Origin: a virus
Strand: one strand, 5' to 3'
IMG/VR virus record: IMGVR_UViG_3300028800_000094
Location: 1 to 64,000 of that record
DNA: 64,000 bases
The position numbers and the translations under genes are program-made. The notes under the pieces were generated by a model, which saw only the letters and a list, made by a program, of their open reading frames with translations, searched no databases and was not told the origin of the DNA. Shown here piece by piece: positions 2,183 to 47,407 of this stretch (positions are counted from its first letter, which is position 1; each line of letters opens with the position of its first letter).

Positions 2183-2881
2183 ATGACCGTCTATTTGCTT
2201 CGCTATAAGCTACCCTTCGTCGATCTCACCGTTTCGCAATACGACAACCGGGCCGACGCCTTTAGCGGCGCCACCATTGCGCAAGAGGGCGGCCATAAGA
2301 CGGCCGTCGTCGAAACGGAGGACGATCTCACCGCCCTCGATAATTCGATTATCCTGGCCGGCTACAACTTCCTCGCCAAGAAGAACATCAGCAAGTTCGA
2401 GAACGCATCAATCGGCCGCAGACGCTTTTTTGACGCTTTGACTGGATCGAAAAAGGATGCTACCGACGCATCTGCCGAGCCTTCCTCGGCCGATGCGATC
2501 GAAACCACCGAAGGAGACACTGACATGGCTACCAAGAAACCCGCGAAAAAGACCAAGACCCCGAATACCCCGAAGGCCCCGAAGGCCCCGCGCGTCAAGA
2601 AGGAAAAGAAGCCCGCGAAGCCAAAGGTCGCGAAAACCGAAGGCGGCACCCGCGAAGGTTCGTCGATGCTCAATCAGGCCATCGAATTGATGCAGCGCCC
2701 GAATGGCGTCACCCGCCACGAGGCCATCGCAGCACTTTCTAAAAAGCACCCCGAAAAGAAGGAGACTGCGGTCGACAACACCTTCCGCAGCTTCCTGAAT
2801 TACATTCCAAACAAGACCAAGCTCAAGATGAAGAAGTCGAAGGAAGAGGGCCGCAAGGGCACCATTTACCGAATCGTCTAA
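2183..2881 (+). CDS. Lysine/alanine/proline-rich protein with probable C-terminal winged-helix-like domain
   Basis: 232 residues in three parts. An N-terminal globular region covers about residues 1-90. A low-complexity linker, very rich in Lys, Pro, Thr and Ala (about 113-155, repeating KAPK-type units like histone H1 tails), follows. The C-terminal domain of about 75 residues (SSMLNQAIELMQRPNGVT...) looks like the helical DNA-binding module seen in DUF3489-like proteins. Preceded by GTGGGAGAGCAG, a variant of the phage's recurrent extended ribosome site. A DNA- or nucleoid-binding role is inferred from composition only. Confidence 0.6.
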   Translation: MTVYLLRYKLPFVDLTVSQYDNRADAFSGATIAQEGGHKTAVVETEDDLTALDNSIILAGYNFLAKKNISKFENASIGRRRFFDALTGSKKDATDASAEPSSADAIETTEGDTDMATKKPAKKTKTPNTPKAPKAPRVKKEKKPAKPKVAKTEGGTREGSSMLNQAIELMQRPNGVTRHEAIAALSKKHPEKKETAVDNTFRSFLNYIPNKTKLKMKKSKEEGRKGTIYRIV

Positions 2882-2909
2882 CCAGCAAATTCGGCGAGGG
2901 GGCCGCCTA

Positions 2910-3668
2910 ATGACGTTTCGTAAAGAAGTGATCGGCGACGCGACGCTCTATAACGGAGACTGTGTTTCCGTTATGGAGCAAATTGAGGCGGATTCGGTTG
3001 ACCTAATCTGGACCGATCCGCCCTATGGCAACGAAAACAACGCGAAGGACGCCAACGCCACCCTGCGGATAAAGCGTGGACTAGAGAACGGCGCAATCAT
3101 AAATGACGACTTGGTCTCCATGAAAACGGTCGTCGCCGGCATGCTCAAGCAGGGTGCCCGCCTGATTAAAAAGGACTGCGGAACTATCGCTGCCTGCTGT
3201 GCAGGGGGTGGGAATACCGGCTCCGATTCCTTTGCGTGGCTGTCCAATACGATGAACGAGCCCCCCCTGACATTCTATCACGCTGTTGTCTGGGACAAGG
3301 TTAATATCGGCATAGGCTGGCGCTGGCGTCGGCAATACGAATTCATTATGGAGTGCCATAGGCTCGGCGGCGATATCGGGTGGTATTCGAACAATAATAA
3401 TAATCGAAACATTATCACGTGGATGCCGTCGCGTGACCGTGAGCATCCGAACGAGAAGCCGTACGAACTAATCAATGTTTTTATCGAGGTTCATACCTTG
3501 CCCGGACATGTAATCATGGATCCGTTTATGGGTTCGGGCTCGACTGGAGTTGCCGCTTTGAAAGCCGGCCGCAAGTTCATAGGCATCGAACTGGATCCCA
3601 AGCACTTCGTCACGGCGTGCCGCCGCATCGAGGAATCCTCTAAGCAGCCAGGGCTGTTTATCGTTTAA
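2910..3668 (+). CDS. DNA methyltransferase (N6-adenine or N4-cytosine class)
   Basis: 252 residues. Catalytic motif IV is DLIWTDPPYGNE (about residues 31-42) and the AdoMet-binding motif lies C-terminal (DPFMGSGSTGVAALKAG, about 208-224), followed by FIGIELD. This order is that of beta-class site-specific methyltransferases such as the YhdJ/CcrM group. DPPY indicates amino-group methylation rather than C5-cytosine. No restriction endonuclease gene is adjacent, so it is an orphan methylase, plausibly for self-protection or regulation. The target sequence cannot be read from the protein. Confidence 0.93.
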   Translation: MTFRKEVIGDATLYNGDCVSVMEQIEADSVDLIWTDPPYGNENNAKDANATLRIKRGLENGAIINDDLVSMKTVVAGMLKQGARLIKKDCGTIAACCAGGGNTGSDSFAWLSNTMNEPPLTFYHAVVWDKVNIGIGWRWRRQYEFIMECHRLGGDIGWYSNNNNNRNIITWMPSRDREHPNEKPYELINVFIEVHTLPGHVIMDPFMGSGSTGVAALKAGRKFIGIELDPKHFVTACRRIEESSKQPGLFIV

Positions 3669-44025: not shown

Positions 44026-44267
44026 CGGGTTATGCCACAAAGACGATCGGCTTCGGCCGAGAGATTTTGATGTAACGCGAATTTACAAAACGTGACCGCG
44101 TACTTATGGCCGGCATTCCGAAGATTCCGATCAAACGGAAAACGATGGCCCCAAATAAACAGCTTCGCGTAAACATCAAACGGGCTGTGATAATGACCAT
44201 CGGTGAGCGTGGCACCAATCTCGATCTCGCTGGTCAGGTTCACTCCTGAGTAAACGATCGCGAGCAC
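44022..44267 (-). CDS. Small membrane-associated protein overlapping the O-antigen polymerase-like gene
   Basis: 81 residues if started at GTG 44267; the frame is open further upstream inside the neighbouring gene, so the start is uncertain. The N-terminal part is hydrophobic (LAIVYSGVNL, continuing upstream as RRWLWAACTVLAIVY). The remainder DGHYHSPFDVYAKLFIWGHR, FPFDRNLRNAGHKYAVTFCK looks folded. It ends by ATGA overlap with the protease gene. It probably works with the Wzy/WaaL-like protein encoded just upstream. Confidence 0.55.
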   Translation of the reverse strand: MLAIVYSGVNLTSEIEIGATLTDGHYHSPFDVYAKLFIWGHRFPFDRNLRNAGHKYAVTFCKFALHQNLSAEADRLCGITR

Positions 44268-45255
44268 CGTACAGGCGGCCCAGAGCCAGCGCCGTAGCGA
44301 AGAGCGTGACCGGCTCGTGGAGGGGGAAACTGACGAGCCCTTCGGCAAGGACAGCGACGAGAACAAGTCGCTCTGCGAGTAGCTTGCCTCGGAAGGCAAC
44401 CACGATGAAGGCGACAAAAGTGATCGAACCGATACCAAGGTCAAAGACGGCCTCCATCAAATCATTATGGGCGTGATCCCACGGAAGCACGCTGCCGTAA
44501 CTGGCGAAACCCCACCCGAACGGCTTTAGGTTCGCCAGCGTCCATGCCCAGAAGTCGAAGCGGTTCGTTACCGAGGCCGAGCGCCACGCGTCCTGTGAGT
44601 CGAGCCAAATAAGGGCGCCAGCCGCGAGAACCAGGGGGGTGGCTATCATGAGCCATTGCCGGAAAGGCCGGCCGTGCATAGCGTAAAAGAAGACCACGGC
44701 GCCTAGTGCAAGTAAGGCCCCGCGCGAGCCTGAGCAAGCGAGCATGATGAAGCAACTCAGCATCGCTAGACATTCGAGATGGTTTTTATTCTTGACGCTC
44801 AGGATACCAGCCAATGCGACTACGAGAGCCTCGGCGAAATTATCTCGGTTCAAGAAGAGGCCGGCAATACCACCGAGCGGCGCTGCTATACGGGATCCGA
44901 ATAGCTGCATCACTACGAACGGCACCGAGGTTACGAACCCCAGTGCCAGCCCGAGCCATACCCGGCGAAGATCCTGGGCTTCGGATGCGATCTGGAAGAT
45001 CAAAGCAAGTGCTGCGAATTGAACGAGGGCGCCGATGCCTTGAAGCGGATCGAAGGCCCAGAGCAGCGACGTCGCGGCATAGATAAGGAACGTGAGCCCG
45101 AGAAGGTGCCCGACCGTCCATCGGATTGGAACGGTCGAGCGAAGTGCCATCAACACAGGCGCGGCAATTAAGATCGCCCACCACCTCGGCGCTACACTTG
45201 CAGAGACGAGCCCTGGTATGTAGATCGCCGAGGTTATGAAGGCGAGGATCGGCAT
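44176..45255 (-). CDS. O-antigen polymerase/ligase-like membrane protein (Wzy/WaaL family)
   Basis: 359 residues with about nine to ten transmembrane segments (ILAFITSAIYIPGLVSA, LLGLTFLIYAATSLLWAF, LIFQIA, VWLGLALGFVTSVPFVVMQL, ALVVALAGILSV, and more). The diagnostic periplasmic loop is present: GSRGALLALGAVVFFYAM, later NLKPFGWGFASYGSVLPWDHAHNDLMEA (quoted in part), with HAHNDLMEA matching the HNxxLE-like motif of O-antigen ligases/polymerases. Such an enzyme could modify host lipopolysaccharide and block superinfection. Its place inside the head operon is unusual for a conversion gene. Membrane topology and family call are firm; substrate unknown. Confidence 0.8.
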   Translation of the reverse strand: MPILAFITSAIYIPGLVSASVAPRWWAILIAAPVLMALRSTVPIRWTVGHLLGLTFLIYAATSLLWAFDPLQGIGALVQFAALALIFQIASEAQDLRRVWLGLALGFVTSVPFVVMQLFGSRIAAPLGGIAGLFLNRDNFAEALVVALAGILSVKNKNHLECLAMLSCFIMLACSGSRGALLALGAVVFFYAMHGRPFRQWLMIATPLVLAAGALIWLDSQDAWRSASVTNRFDFWAWTLANLKPFGWGFASYGSVLPWDHAHNDLMEAVFDLGIGSITFVAFIVVAFRGKLLAERLVLVAVLAEGLVSFPLHEPVTLFATALALGRLYGARDRLLRSEPDQRDRDWCHAHRWSLSQPV

Positions 45256-45829: not shown

Positions 45830-47407
45830 TCAGTCGAAATGATCGGGCAGGACTACTTCAGCCCAGCACCTGCAGTTTTTGGATACCAATCGCTGGTCTG
45901 TCGTTGTATAGTATCCGCGACCAGTAGAAAGGGTGAACACATGGCCGGCAAAACGATGGCGTCCAAGCGACTCCACACGGAGACGTCGAAAGTAATCGCT
46001 GCCTATACAGGGGGGGAAAGCGAACTCTCCCTCTCCAAACGCTACGGCGTGAACCGATGGACGATCACGCGCCTGCTCGAAAAAGCTGGTATTGAAAGGC
46101 GTGGTCGAAGTGCCGGCATGTTCGCGCGCATGGCGCAAGCCAACATCGAAACTCGGCGCAGCCTCATAGCGAAGGCCCGCGCGACTCGCATCGCCAATAT
46201 GGCTGCTGCCGCCGAAGAAGATCGGCCTCGCTACGATATCGGATTCGGCGAAGTCGAAATTGCCCAGGCTATGGCCGCGCGAGGTTTTGAAATCGTCAAG
46301 CAACGAATAGTCGGACCATATATCATCGACCTGACCATCAATGGCGTCGCCATAGAAGTTCGTCTCGGCGCTCGATCGCTTAAAGTGGCGTTTGCCAGCG
46401 AGCGCGATAAAAAGCTCATCGAAGCTTACGGTGAGCGGCTGGTCAGTATTCATTTCAGCCGGGCGATCCCCCTGACTGATTGTTTGGATCAAGTAGTCGC
46501 CCTCCTGGAGAGCGCCTGCCGCAACCCACCCCCGGTCGGTGAGCATTGGATGATTAAGTGTTACCGTCAGCGGCTTCGCTGCCCCGGCCATTACTACGCT
46601 AACCAGATCACCCTGGTAAAAGGCACGCCACAAGCGGTGAGCGTCGCGCGTTAGCTGGATAACGGTGTCGCCGGTGAAGCAGTTATAAATCTGGCCGGCG
46701 TGCGTCGTCGTACCATCGGAAAGCGTGGGAACCTCGTCCCATTTTACATACTTCCCATTCATTTCACGATGCGATGGCCTTGTATCGCTGTCAGTCTGCG
46801 AACGCCAAATGTAGCCGAGACTGCCTATGTGCTCTGCGCGGGCCTGAACCAGCCCCGACGACGTCCGCGCCACTTCAGTCCGCGCGATTAAGTCAGCCCT
46901 GGATTTAGACACGTGCCCCGAGCGATAGATCTCTTTGCTGATCTCCTTCGCGCGGGTGGAATTCGATATGTTCTCAAGCGTCAGCTTGTGGACGCGCTTG
47001 GCGGCATCGGTTGGCAGCGACGTGATGTAGTGCACGCTCTCCGCCATAAACTTCCGCAGCATCTCGCCGGTCGGTGCGGTCTGAATCTCTTGGCGCAACG
47101 AAGCGCCCATCTCTTTGCCGAGCTGCGCCCATACGCTCTCGTCCCGGCGCGCTACCTCAAGTACCATGCGGCGGGCGACAGTGCCCGCCCATGGCCGTAT
47201 CAAGTCGGAATAGGATCGCAGCGCGATGCTAATCTGGCTCAGGAACGCTGGATCGTCTTGATCGAAACCGTTAATGATGGTTCCGATATGCGTAGAGACT
47301 TTGCGAAGCTGCCGCGCGTACTGAACCTCGACCCGACGCGAATAGGCGAAATTCTTCCGCTGCTGGGGAGTGTCGCGGTGCTTATCCTGAATATGGCCAA
47401 GCATCAC
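45830..47407 (-). CDS. MuF-like minor head protein interrupted by an intein
   Basis: 525 residues. The extein is residues 1-242 plus 512-525 (about 256 total), the usual size of Mu gpF / SPP1 gp7-like proteins. ADLIARTEVARTSSGLVQAR, then SDTRPSHREMNGKYVKWDEV, ends at AGQIYN, and the C-extein restarts CRCWAEVVLPD. Without the intein this reads GQIYNCRCWAE, the conserved terminal motif of MuF. MuF proteins bind the portal inside the head. The gene follows the portal gene, as expected. Confidence 0.92.
   Translation of the reverse strand: MMLGHIQDKHRDTPQQRKNFAYSRRVEVQYARQLRKVSTHIGTIINGFDQDDPAFLSQISIALRSYSDLIRPWAGTVARRMVLEVARRDESVWAQLGKEMGASLRQEIQTAPTGEMLRKFMAESVHYITSLPTDAAKRVHKLTLENISNSTRAKEISKEIYRSGHVSKSRADLIARTEVARTSSGLVQARAEHIGSLGYIWRSQTDSDTRPSHREMNGKYVKWDEVPTLSDGTTTHAGQIYNCFTGDTVIQLTRDAHRLWRAFYQGDLVSVVMAGAAKPLTVTLNHPMLTDRGWVAAGALQEGDYLIQTISQGDRPAEMNTDQPLTVSFDELFIALAGKRHFKRSSAETNFYGDAIDGQVDDIWSDYSLLDDFKTSRGHSLGNFDFAESDIVARPIFFGGSSHIGDASRAGLRYEAAPSFDVGLRHAREHAGTSTTPFNTSFFEQARDRPSVHAVAFGEGEFAFPPCIGSDYFRRLRVESLGRHRFAGHVFTLSTGRGYYTTTDQRLVSKNCRCWAEVVLPDHFD
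45875..46681 (-). mobile_element. Intein in the MuF-like gene, 269 aa
   Basis: Begins at Cys (46681-46679, CFTGDTVIQLT, block A), with block B TVTLNHPMLTDRGWV. Ends with block F/G HVFTLSTGRGYYTTTDQRLVSKN, final Asn at 45877-45875 followed by extein Cys. All residues needed for splicing are present. There is no LAGLIDADG or in-frame HNH; the central ~180 residues include FYGDAIDGQVDDIWSDYS, a linker seen in other phage inteins to my recollection. The central DNA also encodes a different protein on the opposite strand (45941-46654). Confidence 0.9.
45941..46654 (+). CDS. Vsr/EDxHD-like homing endonuclease encoded antisense inside the intein
   Basis: 237 residues on the plus strand, entirely inside the intein (45875-46681) encoded on the minus strand. 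Start ATG 45941 has AGAAAGGGTG at ribosome distance. The N-terminus has a resolvase-type HTH (LSLSKRYGVNRWTITRLLEK, AGIERRGRSAG). The C-terminal domain has GFGEVEIAQAMAARGFEIVK, QRIVGPYIIDLTINGVAIEV then HFSRAIPL, the layout of Vsr-related homing endonucleases (E near the helix, D in YIIDL, ExR/ExK-like strand). Two recognisable domains in logical order make chance antisense ORF unlikely. Presumably it spreads the intein; activity is not shown. Confidence 0.78.
   Translation: MAGKTMASKRLHTETSKVIAAYTGGESELSLSKRYGVNRWTITRLLEKAGIERRGRSAGMFARMAQANIETRRSLIAKARATRIANMAAAAEEDRPRYDIGFGEVEIAQAMAARGFEIVKQRIVGPYIIDLTINGVAIEVRLGARSLKVAFASERDKKLIEAYGERLVSIHFSRAIPLTDCLDQVVALLESACRNPPPVGEHWMIKCYRQRLRCPGHYYANQITLVKGTPQAVSVAR

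Follow-up and report, generated by a model that had tools for sequence, protein, structure and literature searches.

A phage gene for a MuF (head morphogenesis) protein is interrupted by an intein whose DNA carries, on its other strand, a second gene of the homing-endonuclease kind. It is highly likely that this locus belongs to a mobile intein family whose homing endonuclease is encoded by a gene of its own, antisense to the intein and covering almost all of it, with splicing, cleavage and homing inferred. What is observed, at the level of the family, is that the genes are nested and conserved, that their product has a nuclease fold, that the nuclease frame is under selection, and that there are precise empty sites and lateral spread; splicing, cleavage and homing remain inferences, and there are no cleavage, splicing or expression data. 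We hold with good confidence that these elements form a widespread class of phage inteins, with hundreds of members in MuF and one or more in a gene for uracil-DNA glycosylase. In this class most of the intein is overlapped, on the opposite strand and in codon register, by the homing endonuclease gene; the complement of block F supplies that gene with its ribosome-binding site and start codon, and mobility and splicing are dual-coded. The same DNA very probably makes both an insert that is spliced out and the enzyme that spreads the insert.

The window, i.e., the whole stretch of 64,000 nucleotides that was analysed, is part of a 65.2-kb virus record. Its features are listed in Table 1. The MuF gene starts with a GTG codon at 47407 and runs on the minus strand to 45830. 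The intein begins with Cys1 at 46681 and ends with its terminal Asn at 45875, the junctions reading IYN followed by CFTGDT at one end and RLVSKN followed by CRCWAE at the other. Block B (TLNHPMLTDRGWV) carries the TxxH-type motif expected of this block (TLNHPMLT), and block F reads GHVFTL. The insertion point lies immediately before the Cys of the conserved MuF NCRC motif, and the same site is empty in intein-less relatives. For example, the match to the MuF gene of Bordetella phage IFTN9, which is uninterrupted and 726 bp long, stops at the start of the window intein. The HINT match of the window MuF product is only sub-threshold in Pfam and PHROGs. An earlier note on this DNA had described a minus-strand MuF intein with its splicing residues and with no endonuclease in its own frame, and this description stands: Cys1, block B, block F, Asn and Cys+1 are all present, and searches of the MuF product against Pfam, PHROGs and NCBIfam found no endonuclease domain in the intein reading frame. 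The intact splicing residues suggest that the intein splices out of the MuF protein, an inference made without splicing data. Scans of the window for Rfam families and tRNAs gave no hits, and thus no intron is indicated. Elsewhere in the window, a 359-aa protein with multiple membrane spans, O-antigen ligase/polymerase-like by eye, is encoded on the minus strand at 44176-45255 between phage structural genes.

Table 1. Features of the MuF locus in the window, with strand and supporting evidence.
Feature	Position	Strand	Evidence or remark
MuF / phage head morphogenesis protein, 525 aa, intein-interrupted	45830..47407	-	PF04233 E 9e-15; phrog_324 E 5e-56
Intein, 269 aa, Cys1 (CFTGDT) to terminal Asn (SKN), then Cys+1 (CRC)	45875..46681	-	
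Homing-endonuclease-like gene of 237 codons inside the intein, antisense	45941..46654	+	In codon register with the intein
Putative ribosome-binding site and start codon (AAGGGTGAACACATG)	45929..45943	+	Reverse complement of block-F codons H-V-F-T-L
HTH DNA-binding segment (SLSKRYGVNRWTITRLLEKAG)	46028..46090	+	PHROGs, family profile; model helices 28-35 and 39-48
Vsr/I-Bth0305I-like nuclease core with E104, Y127, D130, E139; LGARS for GGxWH	46250..46366	+	
Sense linker motif NFYGDAIDGQVDDIW (family DFHGDGxDGEVxVV)	46316..46360	-	Mirror image of nuclease core YIIDLTINGVAIEV
Overlap of intein blocks A-B (minus) with C-terminal tail of nuclease ORF (plus)	46523..46654	both	

The antisense gene with its own ribosome site that the earlier note had proposed is present, with AAAGGG preceding its ATG. 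The codons of the two strands coincide, such that position 3 of a sense codon is position 1 of an antisense codon. The ATG is exactly complementary to the His codon of block F, and the stop codon to a Leu codon just past block A. The start lies opposite a block-F motif of the HVY/FxL type in about 30 of 40 relatives, usually with a GAGGT/GGAGG-like sequence. Across the family, the sense motif DFHGDGxDGEVxVV mirrors the nuclease core YNxDFAxGxVAVEV. No sigma-70-like promoter was found near the plus-strand ORF.

An open frame opposite a conserved gene could be a mere mirror of the intein codons in a stop-poor register, with the sense intein as the only gene. The exact register and the inclusion of the conserved blocks A-B and F in the overlap are compatible with this, the antisense frame in question is often open by chance in high-GC DNA, and one Pseudomonas locus has an unrelated open antisense frame of 1097 codons. 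In the window overlap, sense codons that would be antisense stops number 0 against 3.95 expected (P about 0.015), and the fact that the window ORF is open is, by itself, modest evidence beyond chance. Homology and the selection tests across relatives are decisive.

The plus-strand product was predicted in the earlier note to have a resolvase-type HTH followed by a Vsr/EDxHD-like nuclease fold, and three lines of search support these domains. PHROGs finds the HTH in the window product. A family profile matches the structures of I-Bth0305I (3R3P, E 1.6e-5) and NGO0050 (3HRL, E 1e-5) and the HTH of gamma-delta resolvase. A structure model of the window product (mean pLDDT 80) has 3HRL (probability 1.00) and 3R3P (probability 0.99, TM by target 0.61) as its leading Foldseek matches, although the Foldseek E-values are around 0.01-0.03 despite probabilities of 0.99-1.00. 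The model of a relative with the GGxWH motif matches Vsr as well (probability 1.00). By profile and fold search, the family product is an HTH joined to a Vsr/I-Bth0305I-like nuclease, for which there are no cleavage data.

Homing endonucleases of the EDxHD / I-Bth0305I kind combine a Vsr-like catalytic fold and acidic residues with an active-site His and an appended DNA-binding domain. The window product, with its N-terminal HTH as the appended domain, satisfies all of these except the His. D130 and E139 occur in 175 of 175 family members and E104 in 169, and the window has all three, with Y127 also intact. The His of GGxWH is found in 146 of the 175 members and the Trp in 132; the window has S for the His and R for the Trp. 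Since the active-site His is absent, the window copy is not filed as an active EDxHD enzyme, and because Trp and His are both missing, its own nuclease activity is uncertain.

There could be a real family of which the window copy is a decaying remnant, with an open frame, an inactive nuclease and only the intein functional. This is a serious possibility, which we lean slightly against. The LGARS in place of GGxWH speaks for it, the window copy has no close relatives that could show constraint, and stops at other loci represent decay. The window frame nevertheless has no stops, its fold is predicted with confidence, and the four residues E104, Y127, D130 and E139 are retained. Moreover, members of the Salmonella/E. 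coli clade have GGGWA, likewise without the His, and yet are under strong purifying selection; therefore, a missing His is by itself no proof of decay, and the motif is variable.

The arrangement proved to be far more widespread than the earlier note reported and occurs in hundreds of phage genomes. A tblastn search of 50,697 phage records with the window protein gave 21 matches, all inside annotated genes and, wherever the gene was named, in MuF/head genes. They come from phages of Gordonia, Mycobacterium, Cronobacter, Edwardsiella, Klebsiella, Vibrio, Pantoea and Haemophilus/Aggregatibacter, and from a Helicobacter prophage. At the 10 loci that were read out (9 tblastn records and 1 IMG/VR contig) the nuclease frame has no stops and faces a sense ORF in codon register with it, and this holds also for the Helicobacter prophage locus with its 33% GC; at locus L022r, the antisense ORF is at 2594-3295. 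Two relatives used as queries retrieved 121 and 105 records, about 63 Salmonella phages among them, and sensitive searches recovered 469 relatives in IMG/VR (with one alignment) and 23 in bacterial genomes. Relatives were retrieved with alignments of closer subsets, and the broad family alignment had no conserved stretch; a genome scan with one family alignment (A2) found no relatives.

Among 101 loci selected through the nuclease, 100 show codon-register nesting opposite a long sense ORF, and 17 have one or two stops in the nuclease frame, which is consistent with the ordinary decay of homing nucleases. Grouping of 139 nested loci by N-extein placed 131 in one MuF cluster. A census was also made in the reverse direction, in which the sole criterion for an intein was its N-terminal splicing region (pattern TPNHP[IV]LT) and the best 80 loci were taken; this sample is the set nearest to the query set and not a random draw of all inteins. 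A profile search found the antisense nuclease in all 80, intact over more than 170 profile positions in 74 and with stops in the match in 2. It had been stated beforehand that inteins keeping the minus-strand protein while freely accumulating stops in the plus-strand frame would refute the dual-coding proposal. Such inteins were not what the census found, given the frame in 80 of 80 and stops in only 2. In Gordonia phage Barsten, the same MuF site does hold an intein without a homing endonuclease gene (HEG), and the sense motif DFHGDG is also absent there. Sedona, Sampson and KMB36, which a pairwise search had suggested as HEG-less, were rejected as such: they have divergent nuclease frames by profile, and only Barsten lacked one.

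In one IMG/VR genome (L217, UViG 3300037264_000873), an intein with an antisense nuclease lies in a gene of the uracil-DNA glycosylase superfamily, inserted between NTVK and CRPP with PF03167 on both sides, and the arrangement is thus not limited to MuF. Antisense-nuclease inteins are found at other sites of MuF-like proteins in Mycobacterium phage Sejanus (L007) and at two further loci (L197 and L212). In two phages, part or all of the antisense ORF is annotated as a hypothetical protein (2724-3125 in Salmonella phage vB_StyS-sam, L014; 455-1348 in Acinetobacter phage IME285, L015), and neither annotation draws a connection to an intein.

The synonymous-substitution check on each strand, which the earlier note had suggested, identifies the nuclease strand as the better-conserved reading of the linker. 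It was done on relatives only, since the window copy has no close relative and hence lies outside these tests. In the overlap of 13 pairs of relatives, the ratio of substitutions at sense positions 1 and 3 is 1.1-2.6, versus 0.10-0.68 in the flanking extein. When 22 independent pairs were pooled, each locus being used once, substitutions in the overlap at HEG codon positions 1, 2 and 3 numbered 1344, 744 and 1906, with an excess at the third position of the nuclease gene in 21 of the 22 pairs. HEG-synonymous substitution in the overlap is 0.43 versus 0.28 for sense-synonymous, the reverse of the flanking extein (sense-synonymous 0.43, antisense 0.22). In the linker alone the values are 0.50 (HEG) and 0.28 (sense, with a neutral expectation of about 0.24), whereas in blocks A-B they are 0.29 and 0.47; the region of blocks A-B is where the sense frame is the more constrained one in relatives. 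As judged from these substitutions, the linker is set mainly by the nuclease frame and the splicing blocks mainly by the sense frame. Three sense codons (TTA, CTA and TCA) would read as stops on the antisense strand; they occur 22 times in the 139 nested loci against 937 expected from the codon usage of those loci, a contrast that is inflated in that the nuclease had served to select most of them.

That the antisense frame merely mirrors the intein is hardly conceivable in the light of these results. Substitutions track the third codon position of the HEG, stop-generating sense codons are depleted as stated, the product matches known nucleases by fold and profile, the HEG-less Barsten intein has no such signal, and standalone copies (see below) persist where the sense strand is full of stops. 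For the family, the standalone copies and the substitution test led us to reject it. A different objection would be that the sense linker, whose DFHGDG motif is strongly conserved in the sense translations, is a functional domain that constrains the DNA while the nuclease rides along. This is very improbable: the sense-synonymous value of the linker lies near the neutral expectation while the HEG-synonymous value is 0.50, and the motif is missing from the Barsten intein.

The nuclease gene is kept without the intein in three standalone cases, i.e., in Acinetobacter phages, in the IMG/VR locus L046 and in a Thermoleophilia locus (L133). The copy in Acinetobacter phages IME285 and P1068 is 32.5% identical to the antisense ORF of Aaphi23 over 299 aa (E 2e-33). 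It is convergent to an intein-less MuF gene ending in CKCRAKLIIEIPDNLINQ, with a 7-nt overlap, and the strand opposite to it is full of stops with apparent traces of intein blocks. L046 and L133 have the same layout, convergent to the 3' end of an intein-less MuF gene and with no open frame on the opposite strand. At L015/L016 (the Acinetobacter phages), L046 and L133, this closed strand shows apparent traces of blocks B and F, and because these traces persist, the standalone copies probably arose by intein loss. Together with homology, fold and selection, the standalone copies support the central proposal of the earlier note, namely that the same ~700 bases encode an intein core on one strand and an endonuclease on the other.

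Exact empty sites are found in close relatives of phages that carry the element. E. coli phage Snoke carries it, and fEg-Eco19, with 93.6% extein identity, has the empty site between CATCCGAAC and TGTCGA (HPN and CRS). Similarly, Gordonia phage Vivi2 has the element, and Brandonk123, at 96% identity, has the empty site (between VVN and CRC). Between Snoke and Salmonella phage LSPA1, the overlap has diverged by 2.5% but the extein by 12.4%, which points to lateral transfer. The MuF site of Gordonia Vividuovirus is occupied by a Vivi2-type, Sedona-type or Barsten-type intein or is empty. Near-identical phages of this genus (L003, L150, L152 and L157) thus offer a natural allelic series of two nuclease-bearing inteins, a nuclease-less intein and nothing.

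The main role of a real nuclease could lie elsewhere, in the attack on competing phages (marker exclusion) or in regulation of the MuF transcript. The standalone copies beside intein-less MuF, which persist without an intein like free-standing phage homing nucleases, would fit such a role. Almost all copies, on the other hand, lie within an intein at the MuF NCRC site, and the intein-nuclease unit as a whole is polymorphic for presence and is transferred laterally; we regard another main role as unlikely. In the homing model that we prefer, the minus strand would encode a MuF precursor from which the intein splices out, leaving a MuF that still works. The plus strand would give the nuclease from an antisense transcript, with its own ribosome site and start from the complement of block F. 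In a co-infected cell, cleavage by the nuclease would fall on the conserved NCRC codons of an intein-less MuF allele, and the entire element would be copied in as the break is repaired from the intein-bearing one. With its start signal in block F and its frame dual-coded, the nuclease may, by inference, be difficult to discard without damage to the intein.

The endonuclease of an intein has been viewed either as an in-frame domain or as lost. Many seemingly nuclease-free inteins, those of Salmonella Jerseyvirus and Gordonia phages among them, have a nuclease on the other strand, which is missed or unnamed in nearly all annotations examined. These loci are a clean natural case of two unrelated proteins encoded antisense over about 700 bases, in tractable phages and with selection separable by segment. 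They allow a direct test of how dual-coded genes evolve and of whether overlap protects selfish genes from loss, and they bear on how often element-borne nucleases hide in antisense.

The present element shares with canonical inteins the splicing blocks, insertion at a conserved site and, by inference, spread by homing. In canonical inteins, however, the nuclease is a domain of the intein (in-frame LAGLIDADG or HNH), whereas here it is a separate antisense gene; a canonical intein was rejected as the identity for want of any such domain in Pfam, PHROGs or NCBIfam. Group I introns with antisense homing endonuclease genes occur in nuclear rDNA of protists, and there too the nuclease gene and its host element lie on opposite strands. 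That host element is RNA and its sense strand need not encode protein, whereas both strands are coding here. Fractured genes, reportedly described by Dassa et al. in 2009, are said to be split inteins with a free-standing EDxHD endonuclease gene between the halves. They resemble the present element in having a Vsr-like endonuclease as its own gene at an intein locus and differ in that the intein is split; here it is in one piece, and the nuclease gene occupies the other strand of the same DNA. The likeness to EDxHD homing endonucleases (type member I-Bth0305I, PDB 3R3P) extends to the nuclease fold, the acidic residues and the extra DNA-binding domain, although I-Bth0305I is intron-encoded and the present gene is antisense to an intein, its window copy lacking the active-site His. 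Extra DNA-binding domains joined to the catalytic domain are known in the EDxHD family (PMC3943268), and a large outgroup of EDxHD/Vsr nucleases occurs in phage group II introns (PMC12350094, which also cites Dassa et al.).

The ShiLan domain is an HNH endonuclease that lies hidden, out of frame, within the gene of an actinophage methylase (PMC11855218, 2025). As in the present case, a homing-type nuclease overlaps a coding insertion that is open in the host frame, and its distribution is that of a mobile element. The ShiLan nuclease is of the HNH type, lies on the same strand in another frame and has no splicing domain, in contrast to a Vsr-type nuclease opposite a complete intein; an insertion of the ShiLan type was rejected as the identity in view of the Vsr-type fold, the opposite strand and the splicing residues. 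For the view that overlapping frames are frequent, the same paper (PMC11855218) refers to a 2025 preprint on actinophage inteins of non-canonical architecture, and this preprint may describe part of the present arrangement. A full-text literature search found no description of an antisense intein endonuclease; it did not cover the 2025 preprint (doi 10.1101/2025.01.02.630785), and priority is left open. The arrangement works like an EDxHD homing endonuclease serving an intein, with activity inferred, and its closest published counterparts are the ShiLan insertion and the fractured genes.
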